This document shows, piece after piece, positions 5,376-60,960 of a DNA stretch of 64,000 nt. The notes beneath the pieces are model-generated. The model was not told the origin of the DNA. It worked only from the letters and a program-made list of their open reading frames with translations, and made no database searches. Position numbers and translations under genes: made by a program. How positions within the stretch are numbered: the first letter of the stretch is position 1; each line of letters begins with the position of its first letter. Origin of the DNA: Hexactinellida sp. DTS-2022 (Eukaryota > Porifera > Hexactinellida); the NCBI GenBank assembly GCA_028753945.1, contig JAPNXP010000001.1, forward strand, positions 14,188,501 through 14,252,500, in the 5' to 3' direction.

Positions 5376-6269
5376 ATGGCTGCATTCCTTCAGGATTTCG
5401 AGGTACATAGCGATGTAGTTTGCGAGGTCAGCTACCGTTTGTTGTTGGTTATAATAGAAACCTCATCTTCTATCTGGGCTGGTAACACCCATACAACCGA
5501 TTCCCTTTCCCTACCGGAATACCTCGATACGATCATTGTGTTCGTAAACTCCTTCCTATCAATGGACAGGCTCAATAGAGTGTTGGTACTAGCGGCTCAC
5601 AATAACAGATCACATTTCCTATACCCGACTAATGGTGTGGCCTCTCTTGACACCAAATCATTCTTTGACTCCGTGGACATGAGTGAGGTTACCTCTGGCA
5701 TAATATCAAGCAGCAGCAGTCTGCTAGCTGATACGAACAGTGTGGTGTTCACAAGTGAGCTATCTGGTCTGCCTAGTGCTATTGCCAGGGCACTATGCTA
5801 CGCTAATAAGTTCAAAGGAATAGTACCACCTGGTGTCCGTCTGCTTACCCGGGCCCTTATAATTAACTCTAGCCCAGTGGACGCCTCACAGTACATGACA
5901 TTCATGAATGCCAGCTTTGCAGCGCAGAAGGAGAACACGCCAATAGACGCTTGTCTCCTAATAGAAGACTCGAGTCTCCTGCAGCAGGTGACTAACATAA
6001 CTGGGGGGCTATATCTACGCAAGGCCGGGCACTTTGCACTACTACAGTTCCTCCTCTGGTTCTACCTGCCGGAGATAGAGACGCGTGCTTGGTTCCTACT
6101 GCCCCCTAGGAGCTCTGTGGACACCCGGGCCTCGTGTTGCTGTCATGGCGAGCTCACTGAGTTGGGACATATATGTTCTGTTTGCTTCTCCGTGTATTGC
6201 AAGTTCACACCAATATGCCATGTGTGCGAGACCGCGTTCAAGCTGCCTCTGCTGGGAACCAAGAAATGA
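5376..6269 (+). CDS. GTF2H3: General transcription factor IIH subunit 3 (p34/Tfb4)
   Basis: This intronless 297-residue frame has the length of metazoan p34. The core complex subunit acts in RNA polymerase II initiation and nucleotide-excision repair in the nucleus. The protein shows the vWA-like Tfb4 fold: an N-terminal LLLVIIETSSSIWAG strand, LNRVLVLAAHNNRSHFLYP, AIARALCYANK, QYMTFMNASFAAQKENTPID and LLQQVTNITGGLYL, all characteristic of this family. The C-terminal 50 residues carry the zinc-binding Cys cluster (CCCH, then CSVC, then CHVCETAFK). The ATG follows AATCAA and gives a family-length N terminus. A MITE ends 39 bp upstream. I see no frameshift, and the codon pattern is unlike the AT-rich surroundings. 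Confidence 0.95.
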   Translation: MAAFLQDFEVHSDVVCEVSYRLLLVIIETSSSIWAGNTHTTDSLSLPEYLDTIIVFVNSFLSMDRLNRVLVLAAHNNRSHFLYPTNGVASLDTKSFFDSVDMSEVTSGIISSSSSLLADTNSVVFTSELSGLPSAIARALCYANKFKGIVPPGVRLLTRALIINSSPVDASQYMTFMNASFAAQKENTPIDACLLIEDSSLLQQVTNITGGLYLRKAGHFALLQFLLWFYLPEIETRAWFLLPPRSSVDTRASCCCHGELTELGHICSVCFSVYCKFTPICHVCETAFKLPLLGTKK

Positions 6270-8861: not shown

Positions 8862-9300
8862 ACTGCGGTTAATCAAAACTTCGACACAATCTTATACAAA
8901 TTATTCTAAACGAACGAATATACGAATATTCGTTTGACGATTGAGCATTTAATCTAATTAAAGTCTCAAAATACAGTGGAAATAGTTTTTGTTTATGTTA
9001 CTTTAAATAATTATTGTTACAAAGACACAAAACAGGGTGTGATACAGGGGGGGGGGGGGGGCTGGGATTTCCCCCCCCCAAAAAAAAGTTCCCCCCCCCC
9101 AGGAAAGATGCCCCCATCCCAGGAATTGCTTAACTTTGCCTCAAAGTTATTAAATAAAGGATAAGTTATTGCTAAAATAAACAGGATTAAAGCATAGAAT
9201 GATTATGCCAACTAAATACATTAATTTTGGCCTATACATGTATATGCTGCTCCTATATCCAAGGTAACAGTCTGTTTCTAGGAAAGTTCCCCCCCCCCGA
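8862..9300. other. Non-coding stretch with poly-G and poly-C runs
   Basis: Long G and C runs occur at about 9049-9061, 9071-9079, 9090-9100 and 9290-9298. They could form G-quadruplexes and look like decayed ends of GC-rich hAT elements. No gene is seen. Confidence 0.45.
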
Positions 9301-9741
9301 GGGTGTTGTTGTTGTTGTTGCTGTTGTTGTTGTTGTTGCTGTTGTTGTTGCTGTTGCTGTTGCTGTTGTTGTTGTTGTTGTTGCTGTTGTTGTTGCTGTT
9401 GCTGTTGCTGTTGTTGTTGTTGTTGTTGTTGTTGCTGTTGTTGTTGCTGCTGTTGCTGTTGTTGTTGTTGTTGCTGTTGTTGTTGTTGTTGCTGTTGCTG
9501 TTGTTGTTGCTGTTGTTGTTGCTGTTGTTGTTGCTGTTGCTGTTGTTGTTGTTGTTGTTGTTGCTGTTGTTGTTGTTGTTGCTGTTGCTGTTGTTGTTGC
9601 TGTTGCTGTTGCTGTTGTTGTTGTTGTTGCTGTTGTTGTTGCTGCTGTTGCTGTTGTTGTTGTTGTTGCTGTTGTTGTTGTTGTTGCTGTTGCTGTTGTT
9701 GTTGCTGTTGCTGTTGTTGTTGCTGTTGCTGTTGCTGTCGC
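9301..9741. repeat. TTG/CTG trinucleotide array, about 440 bp
   Basis: An almost uninterrupted array of TTG with interspersed CTG ends at a single CTGTCG. Read in different frames it gives poly-Gln, poly-Asn/Ser, poly-Leu or poly-Val. Open frames on both strands follow from the lack of stops in the repeat, and no flanking gene structure supports translation. The CTG positions recur in blocks, suggesting higher-order duplications. Confidence 0.95.
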
Positions 9742-10089
9742 TGTTGGGAAATGGATTTATGATAATCTTTTCCAACAAAATTCACATATTTTTAATTATT
9801 TATATGTACTTCCTCGCTAATCCCAACAGAGGATTCAAAAAAAATTATGTTCCGATTAGTGAATTCCGATAATTTGGATCAAACTTGTCCAAATCTTTTT
9901 AAACCAAACTAAACATGTAGTATACTACCTAATAACCTAATAATTGTCTGTGACTTATTAATTTATAATTTAATTGTAATATACGTTTGATCTCCTGTTC
10001 GGACTAGCGAGGATGTACTGTAAGATAATTTCCAAATAGTACTGCTGATTATCAACAGACCGGCTAACTGGTTAACGAAATCCGCTAAC

Positions 10090-16614: not shown

Positions 16615-17088
16615 TTGGAAGTGATAGAAGTAAAATATTTCTATCATGGACAATTTATTCCTGTAAATGCTGTATGGCAATGTCAAAAATGCAAGGAATT
16701 TATGTTTACAATTGTAGGAGGGATGGTTTATGAAAACGAAGCTGATGACAAGACAGTAGAAATTCGAAAAGTAGCTCCATCTAAGGAAAAGCGGATTTCA
16801 CCAGATGGGAATTGTCTCTTCAGTTCGCTTTCTTATGTTATAGCTGGAACTGATTCTTATCATAAAGAAATACGCGAGTTATTAATTCAAAATATGACAA
16901 ATAAATATCGGGAAATATGCACTAATTACTGCAGTGCACATTATGATTTACTTCCTGAAAATCATTGTAAATCAACAGAAGATTACCTCAAAGTCAGCAT
17001 GATGGATCCTGTTGGCTCTTGGGGGACCGATTTAGAATTATTCCTAGCAGCTCAAATTCTTAGAACTGATATATCTATCTATATATAA
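16615..17088 (+). pseudogene. OTU-type cysteine protease domain (5' part, split)
   Basis: The 157-residue frame has an N-terminal zinc-like CQKCKEF segment and then the OTU core. The catalytic block is SPDGNCLFSSLSYV with the Cys in DGNC; the WGTDLELFLAAQI block follows at the C-terminal end. The final His-containing part is found only after a 1.5-kb insertion, at 18654-18806 (WNKFSAYGFND, KLDIHELTEKSL). OTU enzymes cleave ubiquitin chains; copies carried by transposons are common in invertebrates. Here the domain is interrupted and so presumably inactive. It follows the transposase on the same strand and may have been fused to it. Confidence 0.75.
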
Positions 17089-20522: not shown

Positions 20523-22062
20523 CGATGGTGAACGAATCGGAGACTGGAGACACCTTTTTAAAGCAGCTGTCACTAACTTATTAGCAGAAGAAAATGGACA
20601 GATACGATCAATCCAACTACTCCCTGCGTATATCAATAGGAGACCGGCTGAAAGGGAGTTAATGAAGGATCTAGTTAAGAATGCTGATAACCTGGATAAC
20701 GCACTAGACTATACTGTCTAGAAAAGACACTCGACCCACCTGTCGATGCATTCATATCTATGCAACAACTCGGGAAGTTACAGTGGGAGCCGGGTCAAGA
20801 GATAAACGATTTCTTCTACGTCGCAAAAAGAAAAGCTGCCCAAGCTGAGACGGGAATGAAATTCTTAGCTTCTATTTTGGGCTCTCAACTGCCAAGAGAT
20901 ATCCAGTCTAAAGTCAAAAACAAAGTCAGAGAAATCGACGACGATCTCGACGGCGAACAAGGGAGAGATTTGATCCAACGAGTGAAACGCGAACTCGTTG
21001 AGCATGGACATACACTATCGAAAGGCAATCGGGACTTCGAAGAAATTGCCAAAGTTGCGGTAGTGTCAAAATATGAAACACCATCTGATCTGGCACCAAC
21101 CGAGGAAGGCGATGACGCAGAAATAACACCTACTATACGTAACACTGTGTCCTACTCAAGGGGTTATAGAAGGTAGACCTTCTTCGAAGCGAAAAGAGGG
21201 CTGTTATATCTGCGGAGACAACCACTTTTGGAAATACTGCCCCCAGAAGAGATGTCCCGCATGTGGTCAAAAGGGGCATAAATTACAGGAATGTAAATCG
21301 AGCAAGTCGGGAAGGGACCGTCACTGGGTTTTCGTAGCAGGATCAGATCAAAGTATATCCGAACTGTCTATCGTACTCTCTGTTAAGATTAACGGCAACC
21401 CAGTCACAGTGATATTAGATTCGGGAGCAGGCCCGTCCGTTTTGGACTACGAAACCTTGTGCGAGTTGGGACTAACGAAATATCTACAGGAGCATTCTAG
21501 TCTAATCTATGGACTCTCACAAGCACCAGTAACCGTAATTGGGAGCGCTGACTTAACTGTCGATCTTGGGGACAACCAAGTTACTATGCAGAGATTTCAG
21601 ATAACCGATGCAGGTTCAACACGCATCTTAGGGAGAGACTTATTGATAAAGTTTGGAACTACAGAATTTGACTGGGAAACGCGGCGCGTGAGGTTAGGTA
21701 ACACCTGGAAAAAATCGAGAGCTGCAATCGAAGGAGGCGAACCACTGTCCCGCGCCTCTGTTGCGCTCTTAGAAGTCAACCTATCCGAGGAAGCCTCTGG
21801 TAGACATCCGTTCTTAATCAACACAGCTCTACCCAACAGTCACAAAGAGAAAATCGACCGAGTACTAAACCAATACCAGGATGTCTTCGCAATTAATCCA
21901 AAAAAACCGGCTGTTACAAACAAGATAAAACACAAAATAGATACTCGAAATTCCCAACCTGTCAAATGCAAATCTCTGAGAGTCGCTCCTACAGTGGAAC
22001 GAGAGATCAATGCACAGGTGCGTGAAATGCTGGACAATGGAATTTGCAAACCTTCAACATCC

Positions 22063-22079
<17 letters not shown>
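20523..22079 (+). pseudogene. Gypsy-type LTR retrotransposon gag-pol fragment
   Basis: A gag-like helical part begins near 20523 (IGDWRHLFKAAVTNLLAEE), is frameshifted near 20715, and continues at 20760-21173. Two zinc knuckles follow at about 21199-21297: C-x2-C-x3-H-x4-C, then C-x2-C-x4-H-x4-C. An aspartic protease is seen at about 21409-21465 (VILDSGAGPSVLDYETL) with the partner segment RILGRDLLIKFG. The start of the reverse transcriptase follows (INAQVREMLDNGICKPSTSP) and breaks off at 22065-22075. The order gag, PR, RT and the RT entry motif fit Ty3/gypsy. RNase H and integrase are absent; the next bases are SRP54 sequence. Confidence 0.85.
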
Positions 22080-22689
<610 letters not shown>

Positions 22690-30354: not shown

Positions 30355-30845
30355 GTTGTGATACCATCTTCTCAAATGTCTCACGTGCGCTTAATTGATT
30401 GGGTCATCTTGGACCATCACCATGTTATATTTGCTAGTATTTAATGATGAAACCACTACACCTACCGGGTTGACTGTCCCTATACACAATAGGCCACAAA
30501 AAAGGTACAAAAAATGTATGTACACAAATGTCGCTGTACACAAATGCCCCTGTACATAGATGTCGTACCAAAGTTGTACACAACTGTTTCTCTCCGATAT
30601 TACTTATCGTATGAGTGAGATAAATATCTGATACGGAGTCATTATTTTCAAATATTCCAATTGAATATCTTCACTATCTGTGGTAAAGTGATCAGCTCCT
30701 TTAGGCAGATGTGTGTGTTAATTAATAGACAATGTATATGATAGTTCTTCTGTTAATTAATTAAGCTAAAATAAACTAAGGAGTAATCTCAATTGAACAG
30801 ACATACGGACATATTTGAAGTGTAGCAATTAACTATTGACATACT

Positions 30846-30886
30846 CACAGTGGCTGGAAATGGCAATTTAGGTCGATTAGGTATTT
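30846..30886 (+). repeat. Left terminal inverted repeat of the RAG1/Transib element
   Basis: CACAGTG heptamer at 30846-30852, a 16-base spacer, then the shared block TAGGTCGATTAGGTA at 30869-30883. The left TSD is 30841-30845. Confidence 0.9.
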
Positions 30887-31124
30887 AGATGCAATATAGA
30901 CTATCAAAATGTATTATCAACTTATAGGATATCGATAGCTAGGATTCGAATGGTCTGATTTATTTTACTGTATGGCTTCAAGTGTATTAATTATGACGTC
31001 AGTGTAATTATTGTGTGAAAAATTTTATCATAAAAAAGAAATTTTTTAATACAATACAAATAAATAGTCATAAACATGTAGAACACACTGAGGGAAAATT
31101 CTGAGAGCAAATTGTATTTTATAT

Positions 31125-33349
31125 TTATTTATTAATACAATCCATGCAACCTTGGTGGTCGTCATTTGTGCATCGTAGTAACGAGTTTACTAATTGGTCT
31201 TGAAGGGAAAGCTCTTTAAATTGTTCGTTTGAGGTGGAGCTTAATTTTTGGGCTGTGCTAATTCGATATCTAAGCAATACAGGATCACTCTGAGTTGTTA
31301 GCCTGACAAGAACGTCCTTGATGTTGCTTTCAAAAGATAGCTTTCTAGCCAAACTCTCCCTGTATTTTCGCACATACTTGTTTAACGCCTCGAGGCCTTC
31401 CTCAGAAAATTTCTTAAGTCCAAATCCATTATTGTATGTAGCGATAAGTTCTGGTGAATGAGCCAACAATTTGTGAAGTGAAGGGGTTATATTGACCCAA
31501 TTGAATTTTAAAACTATTAATTCGTATGTGGTTGTACAAATATCTGCTAACCGGGTTGTATCCACCTTATGAGTACTGTTGAACACTCTTAGAATAGCTG
31601 AGAGATTATTGCACAGGATTTTGACGATTTCTTTATCTGCTTCACTTATCGTAGACGTAGCCCAGTTAATGAAGTCTCTTTTGTTGGAGAAACAGTTCCT
31701 TGCAACATTTCCGGTTGTAGTGGTTCCACCATCACAAGAAGGGAGATCAATTTGCAGCCCTGTTTTCTCGTACAACAAGGATCTATTCTCTTCATAGAAT
31801 TTTGAATATGTTGAGATGTTGGAGACCATTTTTGTAATCCGGCATCAAGGTGATAAATAAGCAGCATCAGCCACCTGAAAACACATAAATAGCTATGCAG
31901 AGGTGATGCTGAGAGTATATCCTTGTTCGATGTCGGAGGATGTGTTAAACCAAACCTGGAGTTTGAATCAAGTTTCAAAAATTCGGTAATTTCAACGTCG
32001 TTAAAAATAGATATTGCATCTTGAATTTGTCGATTAATAGGAAAGGAAGATCTAATCAATTCAAGGTCTTTAAGTTGCAAGTGAGTTGCTGTACACAACT
32101 GACATGAAGCACCGCCTGCGCCGCTCAGTATTTTGGACATTTTTCCATCGAACATAGTTCGGCTTATTTTAACATGACAATGTCCATCTGCTAACTCGAT
32201 CCCATCTGTTTCCAAAAGATTCGTAGGAGTATTTATGAATTCTTTCATGAGAAATTCGACGTTTTCATGATTTTCACTCTTCGCTAGTAAAAGTACAGGG
32301 CGTGTGGTGAATGGGGAATTGGGAATTAAGTTAGACCAGATAATATTATTTGCACAATCCTTAATTGTAAGAGGCTTAAAGGCATACAGAATAAAGCTTT
32401 TGTTGTGAAATTAGGATCATTATTTAATTGATTATATATTCGATGACTGCCCGAACCATCTAAGCCATCAGCAATCTCAAATTCAATTGGATATTGTTGG
32501 GAATTTAGTTCCATTGTTTGCAAAATCCTTTCCGCGGTATGTTTGACTATTTCAAAATAAGAATGAGTGACACCAATATTCTGCCCTTCCCTTTGTATAA
32601 ATTTAATTTTTGGAGTTAGGGCTATTTGTGATCTAAAAAGAGCAATGTGATCGTAAGATGGAAAGATTATACCTTCTGGTTTGCACAACTTTCTGATATT
32701 CGAATATTTTCCCAATTTCTAGAATGTCGAGCAAAAATGCAGACTTATCAATAGGCAATTGCTTGTATGAATTGGAGAAGGTGCCTGTTTGTAATATCTC
32801 GGTGCAAACTTTGGATACTTTCCTGTCGTGTACAATGGTAGAAATTAATTTGAGGGCTAGGCTTGCAATGTCTTTCTCCTCTACCCTCTCACGATCAGCA
32901 ATATAGCGTATATGTTGCAACAAGACAGTTAATCTGGACCTTTGGGATTCATATTGTAATTCAGTTATATGTTTTCTGGGGACAAATGAACTTTCTTCAG
33001 TAAAAATACCGGCACATTTCAAGCAAACTGTCTTTTTTTCGCAAATGCAAGTTTCGCATAAAGTGGTCGTGATAGAGTCGATAGTTGATTGGCTCACTAT
33101 TGAAAATGACTTGCTTCTTGTAAGGAATTTCTGGTCTCGTTTTGCTAGTTCCTCAAATGGTTGGCAATTCCAATCTTCAAGCGTTTGATTTTTGACATTT
33201 GTAGTCCTTGTCAATTTAATTCGCCCAAATTTCCTTTTCAGAGATTGAAAGGTGTCTTCATCAAGATAGAACGTTTCGATATAGTTTCGAGCAGCATTAG
33301 AAGGGTTTTCACTCTTTGTAAGGAGTGTATAAGCCTCATTATTATTCAT
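31125..33349 (-). pseudogene. RAG1-like/Transib transposase, three frameshifts
   Basis: The gene runs from ATG at 33349 to a stop at 31125 in four frames joined by single-base shifts near 32715 (A run), 32400 (GCTTTATTC) and 31810 (CAAAATTC). The N-terminal part has a Cys cluster (CETCICEKKTVCLKC). The core holds EIADGLDGSGSHRIYNQL, the likely first catalytic Asp region, then SENHENVEFLMKEF, MFDGKMSKILSG and CQLCTATHLQLKDLEL, which resembles the RAG1 CTLCDATRL zinc segment. HKLLAHSPELI and FSEEGLEALNKYVRKYRE follow, matching the RAG1 HKTLAH and ASEGNESGNKLFRRFR blocks with the catalytic Glu. The C terminus ends with C-x4-H-x2-C-x2-C. The second Asp is not certain: Lys stands in LAKSENHE where RAG1 has Asp in LADESDHE, but MFDGK offers one. 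Frameshifts may be decay or homopolymer errors. Confidence 0.85.
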
Positions 33350-33952
33350 CTTTTATAATATAATGTAACAAATTGGTATAAAAAGTAACAATATTAATAT
33401 AATAAGAAATCTTGAAATTGGACTTTTTGTCCGATTTTTGTTTTTCGGAACTTTTAAGTGTCTAGAAAGTATGTTCGCGCAATTTCGGGGGCCTAGAAAG
33501 GGTTTATAATTCAAATTAACCCTATAAATATTGTTTAAAACATATAGGCAAGTTCGCACTCCTGTGCCCTTTTAAGATTCTACGGGGGTATATATATCTA
33601 CATTATATTTCAATATCGAATTGTATGGTAATTTTGAAGCAAATGGAATGGAACAGTAATTTCTAATAAAAGGAGCACAAACCGCAAAATATATTTATGA
33701 TGGTTATATCATTAGTTTAGTTAACACTGTTCGTTCATTCTGTACATATTCTCTAAGCATTAAGAATTGTAATGAGTGAACGAATAGTATGAATTTTGAA
33801 ATCAAATTACAAATCACAAACCAGCATGACGTCAATTCACCTATAACTCTTGCAAATGTTGATGGATCCAGTTCATTTTTTGAACAGCGAAGTTTGAGAA
33901 TATGGTGAACCTATATACTTAAAAGCATTCAAATCTAAGTAGATAGATTTTT

Positions 33953-33981
33953 TACCTAATCGACCTATTCCTGCCACTGTG
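33953..33981 (-). repeat. Right terminal inverted repeat of the RAG1/Transib element
   Basis: Read inward on the minus strand: CACAGTG at 33981-33975, a 7-base spacer, then TAGGTCGATTAGGTA at 33967-33953. The right TSD ATACT is 33982-33986. Confidence 0.9.
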
Positions 33982-34322
33982 ATACTACGTAGCAGTTATA
34001 GCGGGTGAGTTATGGAGTATCCTTAATAAAGCATTCCCTTTCTACCACTTTCATAATTAAACATCTTGTTGAGTTTGTATGTCTAATAAACAAGTAAATA
34101 TTTAATCAGTCTTAATGGCATTTGAGGCTGCAATTTAATTGGTTAGGACTCTGTAAAATATAATAGGCTTATATAAATAGAGTTTGTTATTCATAATTAT
34201 GAATTATTATTTATTAATTGTGTTACTTGCAAAGGGAATATTATTTCAGATTTATTCTAAAAATTTATAGAATAGCTTTCTACATCATTTGGCTCATTTG
34301 ACCTCTAATACGTGGTGATATC

Positions 34323-51750: not shown

Positions 51751-54700
51751 ATGGAGAAAGTGAATATTGCGGAAATTAAGTCTATGAACGAACTTGCAAA
51801 AACGCTAACGCCAGAGAATGTCCGCACGTTGCAAGACATACTCGGCATTCCGTCCGGAATTGTGGAACGAACTGGAACCAATCCATACGATTTCATTAAC
51901 TCGTTGAAATTCAGATTCGTCGCTTTGGATCCCAAAAGATTCCACAAAGCGCTAGAAACCATAGGGAGATCCGACCTTATAACAATAGCCAATAAGATCG
52001 ACTGGCTCAACGTGACCTTCGCAGGGCCTACAACCAAAAGGGATAGCTCCCCTTCAGTAGAATCATTCGTGACCTTACTCAGAAATGAAATGACCAATGA
52101 CCAATGGAAAATGATATTAGGCGGTGGAACGTCGCAAGAGGTTTCGACAGAAATAGAATTCGATTCAGCATTTAAGTTGTGCATTGAAGGAGGTTTGATC
52201 AGCCAAAATATGGAAAGTTTAAGCGAATTGATGCAAGCCGTAGATCGTGAGGATCTAGCTAAAGAGATGAGAAAGTATTCGCCAATATTTACGAATATGA
52301 ATGAATCCGATTTCCAAAGCAAAATGATAGTAGAATTGCAATCCAACGAAACAAAGGATCAAGAAGACTGGGTGAAGAGACTGAGAGAGTATACCGTCCA
52401 GCAAAATGCAAATGTGTACATACACTTTGATGATGAGGAGAGTACCAAATTGGAATCCGTCTATACACCTCTAACGATTGTGAAAGAGGAAATAATGAGA
52501 GTTAAGGAAAATGAAGAGACCAGCCTAAACGAAATTGCATTCCTAAGGTCGATGAACCAAAAAGATAAGGCATTGAAAGTGGTTGATTTCATTGACATTA
52601 TATCGCAGCGTGACCAGACTGATCCCAAAATATTTTGTCTGATAGGGAATCCTGGTTCTGGCAAAACATTTCTATGCAAATACCTAGCCCTCCAGTATGG
52701 AAATGCCAGCCACACTAATTTCAGTTTCGTCATATCGATACAGTGTCGCAGTGAGGAGTGGCACGGCATGGAGAAAACGAGACAAGACGCCGAGAAGGAA
52801 ATCGACCAAGAATTCATCCAGAAATGGTTTTCATATGCAATGCCAATGGGCATCAAATGGTCCAAATCCCTAGCGAAACATCTGACCAAGACAGGAGGAG
52901 AAGGTCTCCTAATAATCATTGACGGGGTGGACGAATTCATCAAGGATGTTCCATTCAAAACGACACTGCTGTACTTCCTGCTGCAGAAACGTGTGCTTAA
53001 CCGCGCAACGCTACTCGTGACCAGCAGGCCCGGTGCGTGGAATGACATCAGAGAGGAACACGGTCAGGCCTTGAGCGTGGACTCCAGCTTCCAGGTGCTG
53101 GGGTTCTCTCCCCAAGACAGAGACAGCTACTTTGAGAAGAGGATTAGCACGGTTGATAAACTGAGAGACACAAAGGAGCTGTTCTTCCGACACGATGAAA
53201 TCAATCAGTTGTCTCTAGTGCCAGTTAACGCTAGTCTCTTCTCGTCGCTATTTAACGCCACAAACAACATTCTATCTCAGACACTGACACAGCTCTACTC
53301 CGCACTGATTGTGTACATAATAAGGCGGCAATTGCATCGCATGGGACTGAAGCGACTAACGCGGGTAGAGCACATGGCACAATTCCATCCATCCATCCTA
53401 GCCTGCATAGACTGCATAGGAAAGGAAGCCTACGAAGGCATATTCCACAGGGAGCTCAGCTGCAGAGAAGAGGATGTGTCGATTCGCGTAGACTCCCGAG
53501 ACCACAAGACTGAGCGACTAGGCATTATGCAGGTACAAGTGAAGGTTCTAAAGCTAGGCCAGAAAGTGAATGTTTGGACCTTTGCACACTTGACACTGCA
53601 AGAATACATTGCTGCAGTGCACCTTAGCAACAAGACATGGACAGTAGAATGCATAATAGTTCGATTCATCGTGAGTAGTGAGGAGGTGTTCGCAATGTAT
53701 AGGATGGTAGTGAGGTTCTTATGCGGTCTGCTATCGGATAGAGCTGCCTGTCTCATGCCCATTATCTGCGGGAATATTATACCAGATACAATGCCACTAA
53801 TCGGTATGCCTATGATCCATCAACTCAGATACTTAAGTAATATCATCGATGTCTCTGACTGGATTCAATTTACTCAGGTCTATCTACTCATTTGCACACT
53901 AATTGTGGAAACCAACTCTCGCTCAATGAAAGAGTATTTTGAATGTTTCATTAAATTGTTGGCAGAACATGTGAACTTCATTTTCGATAAATCTATAGCA
54001 CCAAACGAATTCCATTGTTTTCTGCTATCACTGAATTACTTCTTCCAAATAGAAATCCTATATATTTCGACATATTTAATTAATCCTAACCAGTTCAGTC
54101 TACTACTGCATCAGCTCTCCTCCTGCAGCCTACACTACCTAGCCATTGCATTCTATGGAACAGATACAGAGCCAATCCAATCGTATACGACCCTCCTATT
54201 CTCTGCTGATACACCAATTAACTATAAGATCAGTATTAGCCTCAGAGACTGTGATCTAACAGAGAGTTTGCATTCCAATCCTCTCTTCCTAACAACAAGC
54301 AATACATTGACTGGAAGCATTAGGCTATCCCAATCCGCAATATCCAATGAAATGCTGATACATTTGACCAATCAGTTTGCTAGCTTTGAGAATCTATTCT
54401 ATGTGCCCAAATCAGATGATTCTGATTGGTCTATTCTGCTGCCACTGATATCCAACAACAGAGCTATTCAGGGGCTGTCCATAAGGGATCCTAAATCATA
54501 CCTGCCAGAGACAACAGACATACTATCAGGCCTCTCCTCCCTGGAAGAGTTATTCTTGTTCAATAAGGATCCCTACGCTGCCCTACCTAACCTACAGACT
54601 AACTACAGTCTCAGTTCTCTATCGCTAATAGCATCTGATGTGCCTCCTCTTAGGGAGAATTACCAAGACTTCCTCATTAACCTCATTGCTAATAATACTA

Positions 54701-55152
54701 CTTCATTGAGGGAAATAAGCCTAAATTGTTTACCATCAGTCGGATTGAACAGCTGTACCAGCATCTTATCCCCAATCCAATCCTGTTGTAATCTGGTATC
54801 ACTAACGCTAGCTGCTATTCCATTCACCTCAGATGATATCAGCTGCTGGGACACTGCTATCCCCTATCTTCAGTCTCTTGTGGAATTGCGTCTCGTATCT
54901 ATCCCCTTGCAGGACACAGGACTAATGGAACTGTGCAAGAGTCTGTATAAACACCCAGCTATTCGTAGCTTGAGGATCCATAATTGCAAACTAACTTCCG
55001 ACTCGTGTGAGCCTATTTTCATGCTTATCCACACACTCCCGTATCTACGCCGACTGACGCTATACAAGCCTGAGCTCTCTCTCCCCGATCCCAGCCCGCT
55101 ACAGCTACTCCAGCAAACAGCAGAGCTATTCTCTGTTAAAGTGCAACTGTGA
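51751..55152 (+). CDS. NLR-type receptor: two DED-like domains, NACHT, LRRs
   Basis: A single exon of 1133 residues. Residues about 5-90 and 105-185 each look like a death-effector domain, with the characteristic end patterns ALETIGRSDLI and LMQAVDREDLAKEM. The NACHT domain follows: Walker A GNPGSGKT at residues 299-306, Walker B LLIIIDGVDEF with Asp391, Asp394 and Glu395, and sensor-like LLVTSRPGAW. The winged-helix part ends in WTFAHLTLQEYIAAVHL, typical of NLRs. The C-terminal 350 residues contain Leu-rich repeats (LRSLRIHNCKLTSDSC, LSSLEELFL). NLRs are cytosolic sensors of microbial or stress signals that oligomerise through NACHT; the DEDs would recruit caspase-type effectors. ATG follows AAA and gives a full first DED. 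No break is seen. It sits alone, with transposon debris upstream. Confidence 0.9.
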   Translation: MEKVNIAEIKSMNELAKTLTPENVRTLQDILGIPSGIVERTGTNPYDFINSLKFRFVALDPKRFHKALETIGRSDLITIANKIDWLNVTFAGPTTKRDSSPSVESFVTLLRNEMTNDQWKMILGGGTSQEVSTEIEFDSAFKLCIEGGLISQNMESLSELMQAVDREDLAKEMRKYSPIFTNMNESDFQSKMIVELQSNETKDQEDWVKRLREYTVQQNANVYIHFDDEESTKLESVYTPLTIVKEEIMRVKENEETSLNEIAFLRSMNQKDKALKVVDFIDIISQRDQTDPKIFCLIGNPGSGKTFLCKYLALQYGNASHTNFSFVISIQCRSEEWHGMEKTRQDAEKEIDQEFIQKWFSYAMPMGIKWSKSLAKHLTKTGGEGLLIIIDGVDEFIKDVPFKTTLLYFLLQKRVLNRATLLVTSRPGAWNDIREEHGQALSVDSSFQVLGFSPQDRDSYFEKRISTVDKLRDTKELFFRHDEINQLSLVPVNASLFSSLFNATNNILSQTLTQLYSALIVYIIRRQLHRMGLKRLTRVEHMAQFHPSILACIDCIGKEAYEGIFHRELSCREEDVSIRVDSRDHKTERLGIMQVQVKVLKLGQKVNVWTFAHLTLQEYIAAVHLSNKTWTVECIIVRFIVSSEEVFAMYRMVVRFLCGLLSDRAACLMPIICGNIIPDTMPLIGMPMIHQLRYLSNIIDVSDWIQFTQVYLLICTLIVETNSRSMKEYFECFIKLLAEHVNFIFDKSIAPNEFHCFLLSLNYFFQIEILYISTYLINPNQFSLLLHQLSSCSLHYLAIAFYGTDTEPIQSYTTLLFSADTPINYKISISLRDCDLTESLHSNPLFLTTSNTLTGSIRLSQSAISNEMLIHLTNQFASFENLFYVPKSDDSDWSILLPLISNNRAIQGLSIRDPKSYLPETTDILSGLSSLEELFLFNKDPYAALPNLQTNYSLSSLSLIASDVPPLRENYQDFLINLIANNTTSLREISLNCLPSVGLNSCTSILSPIQSCCNLVSLTLAAIPFTSDDISCWDTAIPYLQSLVELRLVSIPLQDTGLMELCKSLYKHPAIRSLRIHNCKLTSDSCEPIFMLIHTLPYLRRLTLYKPELSLPDPSPLQLLQQTAELFSVKVQL

Positions 55153-60149: not shown

Positions 60150-60960
60150 GGGGTTTAGTTTCATTTCCCATCTGATGCTCCATTCTGCCACCTTGTCAAT
60201 TGCATGCTGGACCTTACTGGTGGCTACTGTTTTGTCTCTGTGTGCGTGGCCCAGCACGCGATGTCGTCTGCGAACATACTGACGTGTATGCCTCCATTTC
60301 CTACTATGCTTTCTGTAGCGTCTTTTATGAATACGATAAATAGTAGTGGGCTGAGCACTGCTCCCTGTTGTACGCCTTGGGAAGATTTCCTTGACTTGCT
60401 TAAACTATTACCGACTCTCACTTGGATTTCCGGTCTCTAAGGAACCCTCTTATCCAGGTTGTCATCTGTTCGGGATTCGAGCTGTATTAGCTAGTTAATC
60501 AATCCAAATCTCCAAACCTTGTCGAAAGCCTTGCTGAAGTCCAGCAGTGCCAGGACAGTTCTCCAGAATGTGTATTTGAAAGCCACTGTGTACCAGTTGT
60601 GACAATTTGATGGTTTGGTCTTCTGTAGAGTGTAGGGGTCTGAAGCCTGCCTTGGTTCGGACTTAGTTTGCCGTTCTTCACCATAATGTGCATAAGTCTC
60701 ATGACCACCATCCTCTCCATCACTTTTCCCAGACCTGATGTTAAGCTGACAGGTCTATATGACTCTATCTTCTCAGCATCCTTATTCTTCTCAAGTGTAG
60801 GAATGAATCGAATGATGGTTGCTCTCCTCCAAGATGTTGGTGTGTATCCCTGGAACTTCTAGGAGGAGTTGATTATCAACAATAATCTTTCTCGTGCTGT
60901 TGTTGGGAGGAAGGTGATAAATCTCGGAGCTATCTCATCAGGACCGCCTGCCTTGGTAAC
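60150..60960 (-). pseudogene. LINE reverse transcriptase
   Basis: From 60960 down: DEIAPRFI, ATIIRFIPTLEKNKDAEKIE, SYRPVSLTSGLGKVMERMVV in pieces with frameshifts, LLDFSKAFDKVW at about 60530, then QGVQQGAVLSPLLFIVFIKD and SMFADDIACWA with the catalytic ADD at about 60263. The polymerase copies the element's RNA at the target. Several frameshifts make it inactive. Confidence 0.85.

Follow-up and report, generated by a model that had tools for sequence, protein, structure and literature searches.

A glass-sponge Transib-type transposon with a RAG1-like transposase and unequal bipartite ends

What kind of mobile element combines the heptamer of the V(D)J recombination signal sequence (RSS) with a single RAG1-like gene in a sponge genome, and how does it stand to RAG1? 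The question is raised by a 64,000-nucleotide stretch of the glass sponge Hexactinellida sp. DTS-2022 (contig JAPNXP010000001.1, positions 14,188,501 to 14,252,500, forward strand; here called the window), which holds a DNA transposon of 3136 bp whose two ends both carry CACAGTG and which is flanked by ATACT on either side. Its one gene-sized coding region, on the minus strand, contains the blocks HKLLAHSPEL, SEEGLEALNKYVRK and CQLCTATHLQL; a preliminary description, made from the sequence alone, had reported these ends, flanks and blocks, and all of them were found where it had placed them (Table 1). We assign the element, with a probability of roughly 93%, to the cut-and-paste DNA transposons of the Transib superfamily in a glass-sponge lineage, with a transposase that would pair 23- and 14-spacer ends through a RAG1-type nonamer-binding domain (NBD) and the heptamer, cleave by nick and hairpin, and insert with a 5-bp stagger.

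The element ends are not chance matches. The string CACAGTGGC stands at 30846-30854 on the plus strand and at 33973-33981 on the minus strand, and the window contains it three times, where 0.15 occurrences are expected and none of 100 shuffles reached that number; CACAGTGGCNGGAA, with up to one mismatch, was present in the window only at the two element ends (0.01 expected). The left end reads CACAGTGGCTGGAAATGGCAATTTAGGTCGATTAGGTA and the right end, on the opposite strand, CACAGTGGCAGGAATAGGTCGATTAGGTA; they are unequal, sharing two conserved blocks with a gap that is 9 bp greater at the left end. The third CACAGTGGC (60582-60590, minus strand) may be there by chance.

In order to document the insertion, the two window flanks were joined across a single ATACT and run against the genome (112.4 Mb, 18 contigs). 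The nine matches comprised the window's own two flanks, five strong matches and two weak ones. The five strong matches are paralogues of 93-96% identity that span the junction and, when aligned, all carry one ATACT and no element; the weak ones (69% and 70%, on contigs C13 and C14) also span the junction and stand outside this alignment. The perfect 5-bp target duplication of the preliminary description, which had proposed a search for such empty sites, is thus real. The insertion site is itself repeated, with at least five paralogues of its flanks (30660-30845 and 33987-34139) on two contigs at 93-96%. A sister copy on contig C12, flanked twice by CCGTC, is separated from the window copy by a few small indels and by 37 substitutions in 3132 aligned positions (1.2%), which together with the empty sites supports a recent insertion. 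The earlier wording, recent enough to keep exact ends, holds for the ends; the gene of the window copy is broken. From the copies and the empty sites it follows that the element moved in the past.

Three breaks divide the window gene among three frames, and the sister copy keeps an intact frame of 743 amino acids (aa) (L051:420-2651). The best solved-structure match of the protein was HzTransib. In a 16-row alignment D299, D403, E653, C418, C421, H628 and H633 of the intact copy were invariant, giving a full predicted DDE triad and C2H2 zinc site; judged by these alignments, the catalytic and zinc residues are conserved. We take the CQLC pair to be equivalent to RAG1 C727/C730 and the histidines of LHKLLAH to be equivalent to RAG1 H937/H942. 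For HzTransib, passages of PMC6941560 give D126/D225/E436 as the catalytic residues: D403 aligns to D225 by residue count, and by the same count E436 is the third Glu of SEEASE and not the Glu aligned to E653, E652, E653 and E656 all being invariant. The NBD-like region matched the isolated RAG1 NBD (3gna) with an E-value of 0.0075, and the predicted model of a relative, P0004, fits the RAG1 fold including the nonamer-binding region. When the intact protein was scanned with Pfam, no RING domain such as RAG1 has at its N-terminus was found. From CxxC to SPLH the intact copy has 66 residues, RAG1 about 65 (C730 to H795, the position of H795 being from passages of PMC7204232) and the HzTransib relative P0066 has 31; from these lengths the RAG2-binding-like part appears kept in the sponge proteins and lost in insect Transibs, and the alpha11-alpha12 (RAG2-binding-like) region is kept in the sponge proteins as judged by alignment and length. 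A CCGHC-like tail, Cx2Cx3GHx5C, occurs in several relatives (P0004, P0006 and the genome's own C1:2.36M); the focal family is without it.

The protein database held 65 relatives, of which the 13 that carry a name all come from the glass sponge Oopsacas minuta. This agrees with the probable sponge origin proposed earlier, a kinship judged from transposon proteins, and such proteins can pass from one species to another. A quick tree of 54 rows and a careful tree of 38 of these rows gave three clades, namely sponge, insect Transib and RAG1-like (RAG1L), with support 100 in the 38-row tree; RAG1L formed one clade at 100/100, and a long branch placed sponge and insect Transibs on one side and RAG1L on the other (100/100); the tree is unrooted, and the program gave a warning about long branches meeting in it. 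Mean identity was 24.5% between sponge and insect Transibs, 19.5% between sponge and RAG1L and 19.0% between insect Transibs and RAG1L; passages of Martin et al. (PMC7204232) give less than 22% for Transib against RAG1/RAG1L. Where precomputed domains are listed, the sponge proteins and insect Transibs have PF26100 alone and RAG1L up to five further PF26xxx domains. By sequence, then, the protein is a predicted Transib transposase of a sponge clade, a cousin and not a RAG1L. The RAG1/Transib assignment of the preliminary description is borne out by the HzTransib match, the DDE and zinc residues and the tree that it had proposed, in which the sponge clade is separate from both insect Transib and RAG1L. 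Its placing of the element as a relative of the RAG1 ancestor that branched off early is unsupported as stated, RAG1L lying across the long branch: which of three clades in an unrooted tree is the oldest cannot be said, and, as bacterial and archaeal genomes, scanned twice for an outgroup to root the tree, gave 84 and 92 pattern matches and no relative among them, the data speak neither for nor against an ancestral position.

In the genome at least 150 matches to a C-terminal piece of the protein were found, some being two pieces of one copy. Of 544 candidate places 150 were scored (weakest 3.3e-31), and 14 of these had an open frame of at least 690 aa with a stop-free match. Both ends were seen in 13 elements, 11 of them with identical 5-bp flanks; by our own count, 30 of the 55 bases in these duplications are G or C, a G+C lean such as passages of PMC8289069 report for Transib, ProtoRAG and RAG. 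When 12 loci were extended, seven had both ends and identical flanks, one (on contig C10) had both ends and unlike flanks, and for four no second end was found. No second open reading frame of at least 100 aa was found in four intact elements (introns left aside), and the absence of a RAG2-like partner noted earlier agrees with the lack of a RAG2-sized second gene inside the intact sister elements. A RAG2 profile search of the whole genome gave no match and, since the controls gave none either, is uninformative.

These data also bear on whether the element could instead belong inside the clade of RAG1 proper, as a transposon of the RAG-like (RAGL) kind or as a RAG1L relic, and have lost RAG2L. 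The RSS-identical heptamer, the RAG1-type NBD region and zinc residues, the near-RAG1 length of the CxxC-SPLH stretch and the CCGHC-like tail of several relatives would all suit such an origin, but the RAG1L clade leaves out all 14 sponge rows, mean identity to RAG1L lies below that to insect Transibs, and the four intact elements showed no second frame. In addition, a clam RAG1L search of the genome gave 71 matches at 23-40%, of which the 40% one (C12:2144595, within locus L064), the one examined individually, is a divergent Transib and many of the others lie at places already matched by the C-terminal piece, so that we consider a RAGL origin very improbable. A domesticated host gene, to which the full open frame of the sister copy might point, is hardly conceivable given the broken frame in the window, the many copies, the exact ends, the duplications and the empty sites. 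The locus L064 (C12:2143300-2146900) is a broken Transib with 34-39% identity to other sponge Transibs among the rows printed, and bears a CCGHC-like tail and a CACAGTGG end.

The ends of these Transibs are bipartite and unequal: one reads CACAGTG-23 bp-AATAGGCA, and the other has a spacer of about 14 bp. The whole genome was scanned for CACAGTGG followed by 4-34 free bases and AATAGGCA, which gave 158 matches and none in the reversed control. Among the 100 of these matches that were listed, the distance from CACAGTG to AATAGGCA was 23 bp in 80, 14 in 8, 22 in 6, 24 in 3, 21 in 2 and 7 in 1, and the listed 23-bp spacers fall into 12 sequence groups. All 13 elements seen at both ends had unequal ends, and in the gene-bearing ones the long end was on the 3′ side of the gene in 9/9. 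By position, the long spacer is 23 in 12 of the 13, among them the C12 copy with a degenerate block there, and 24 in one. The short spacer, taken from the same number of elements, is less clear: the best automatic match was 14 in 7 and 13 in 1, one family reads 9 or 10, and in the window family a block with one mismatch at 14 competes with a perfect AATAGG 5 bp past the heptamer. Five loci were taken as likely gene-less derivatives, of which one (L062; both end kinds, non-matching flanks) was set apart; the other four, of 974 to 1153 bp and too short for the gene, each have one long and one short end, and three of the four have identical 5-bp flanks. On contig C10 a distance of 79 bp separates two short-type ends that belong to different families (3101931 and 3102010), and the element at 3098266-3101931 has flanks that do not match exactly.

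In the mechanism that we propose, the window copy would be movable only by transposase supplied from intact copies elsewhere in the genome. The transposase would bind both ends through the NBD-like region and the heptamer, and the NBD-like region may be what reads the second block AATAGGCA. One 23-spacer end would be paired with one 14-spacer end, a combination that transposition may functionally need. By analogy with the known HzTransib/RAG chemistry, cleavage would most likely proceed by a nick 5′ of each CACAGTG and then hairpins on the flanks, and the freed element would be pasted with a 5-bp stagger.

Whether the inequality of the ends does anything is a matter on which the evidence points both ways. 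It could be inherited and functionless, transposition needing only the first ~15 bp, and we hold this to be quite possible, if at less than even odds: passages of PMC7204232 propose that the RAGL complexes of invertebrates work with the terminal 15-17 bp and that asymmetry matters relatively little to them, HzTransib ends are symmetric according to passages of PMC8289069, and the short-end block is degenerate in several families. Against it, the spacer length is fixed at 23 while the spacer sequence falls into 12 groups, and the four gene-less derivatives still keep one long and one short end. The more far-reaching idea, that glass-sponge Transibs enforce a long/short pairing (CACAGTG-23-AATAGGCA with CACAGTG-14-AATAGG) read by a RAG1-type NBD without RAG2, and that early animals would thus have had a 12/23-like rule in their single-gene transposons ahead of the acquisition of RAG2, is doubtful and is offered tentatively.

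Asymmetric Transib ends as such are of an already published kind. Tao et al. (2022; PMC9435367) report them for every Subgroup I Transib and for AanRAGL of Aureococcus, and passages of PMC8355894 describe 12/23-like spacers in some Transibs; what is new here is a distinct, quantitatively fixed long end. The elements form a new and well-supported sponge branch within a superfamily that is already known. With HzTransib and other insect Transibs they share a single RAG1-like DDE transposase, heptamer-like ends, 5-bp duplications, the DDE and zinc residues and the best sequence match, but identity is only ~25%, the relatives of HzTransib are without the ~35-residue CxxC-SxLH stretch that sponge proteins and RAG1 have, and the sponge ends, unlike those of HzTransib (Subgroup II in PMC9435367), are asymmetric. 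By description, Subgroup I Transibs of ctenophores and Hydra (PMC9435367) resemble them in asymmetric ends and a retained alpha11-alpha12; their CTT1 tail is Cx2Cx3GHx4C, against Cx2Cx3GHx5C in several sponge relatives, whereas the focal family has no CCGHC tail. AanRAGL and ProtoRAG likewise have asymmetric bipartite ends, with spacers 9 bp apart in AanRAGL (4/13, PMC9435367) as in the sponge (14/23), but carry RAG2L beside RAG1L and another end-block sequence, and the ProtoRAG spacers are 27/31 (passages of PMC8289069). The V(D)J RSS has the identical heptamer and the same order of heptamer, spacer of two lengths and second block, and RAG1 shares the core fold including the NBD, by the predicted model of the relative; the sponge second block is, however, AATAGGCA and not the nonamer ACAAAAACC, the spacers are about 14/23 and not 12/23, and the elements examined carry no RAG2. 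Drosophila Transib5 and others, cited in passages of PMC8355894, are also RAG2-less with spacers near 12/23, but differ in second block and spacing, and those passages name a few Transibs, whereas the sponge genome has many families.

The origin of the 12/23 rule is debated between a view that places it with RAG2 in vertebrates and one in which asymmetric transposon ends came first (passages of PMC8355894 and PMC8289069). Many Transib families, some of them with intact transposases, occur together in one sponge genome. They have a heptamer identical to that of the RSS, an NBD region like that of RAG1 and a long spacer of strictly maintained length that is paired with a short one, and the elements examined contain no RAG2; because heptamer, unequal spacers and lack of RAG2 are combined here, the origin of the rule becomes testable in single-gene elements. 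Light on the root of RAG1 would need a rooted tree. Among titles and abstract openings of the open-access papers listed in our searches (subscription papers and Repbase being outside this scope) we found no description of Transib in sponges, and the genome papers of Oopsacas minuta and Aphrocallistes vastus use neither the word RAG1 nor the word Transib in their main texts (0 counts each).

Table 1. Positions of the transposon, its parts and its empty sites (window positions unless a contig is given)
Feature	Position	Strand	Remark
Whole Transib-type transposon	30846..33981	-	gene on minus strand; second copy C12:2493240-2496381
Target site duplication ATACT, left copy	30841..30845	.	single in 5 aligned empty sites
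Target site duplication ATACT, right copy	33982..33986	.	read directly, and empty sites
Heptamer CACAGTG, left (long end, 3′ side of gene)	30846..30852	+	
Second block ATTAGGTA, long end	30876..30883	+	23 bp past heptamer; genome-wide spacing scan
Heptamer CACAGTG, right (short end, 5′ side of gene)	33975..33981	-	
Second block ATTAGGTA, short end	33953..33960	-	14 bp past heptamer
Transposase gene	31125..33349	-	intronless in intact sister; three breaks in window copy
Open pieces of window gene	33349-32633, 32718-32329, 32410-31649, 31844-31125	-	
Start of region like RAG1 NBD (PRKHITELQYESQRSRL)	32930..32980	-	
Predicted first catalytic Asp, D299 of intact copy	32458..32460	-	alignments; RAG1 D600
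Predicted second catalytic Asp, D403	32147..32149	-	invariant in alignments; RAG1 D708
CQLC, putative zinc-binding pair	32093..32104	-	alignments
LHKLLAH, putative zinc-binding histidines	31458..31478	-	alignments
Predicted catalytic Glu, E653	31398..31400	-	alignments; RAG1 E962
Empty-site paralogues	C1:14338924, 14373614, 14415390; C12:262989, 382613		

Elsewhere in the window, a Tfb4 (TFIIH) frame lies at 5376-6269, a long trinucleotide-like tract at 9150-9820, in which more than one frame is open (several frames, with poly-Q, poly-L and S/N-rich translations), and an OTU protease-like frame at 16615-17088. An aspartyl-protease-like frame at 21409-22080, slightly below its own cut-off, is perhaps derived from a retroelement. 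A single-frame NLR-like gene of 1133 aa occupies 51751-55152 on the plus strand and contains a NACHT domain (PF05729, 9.4e-18).
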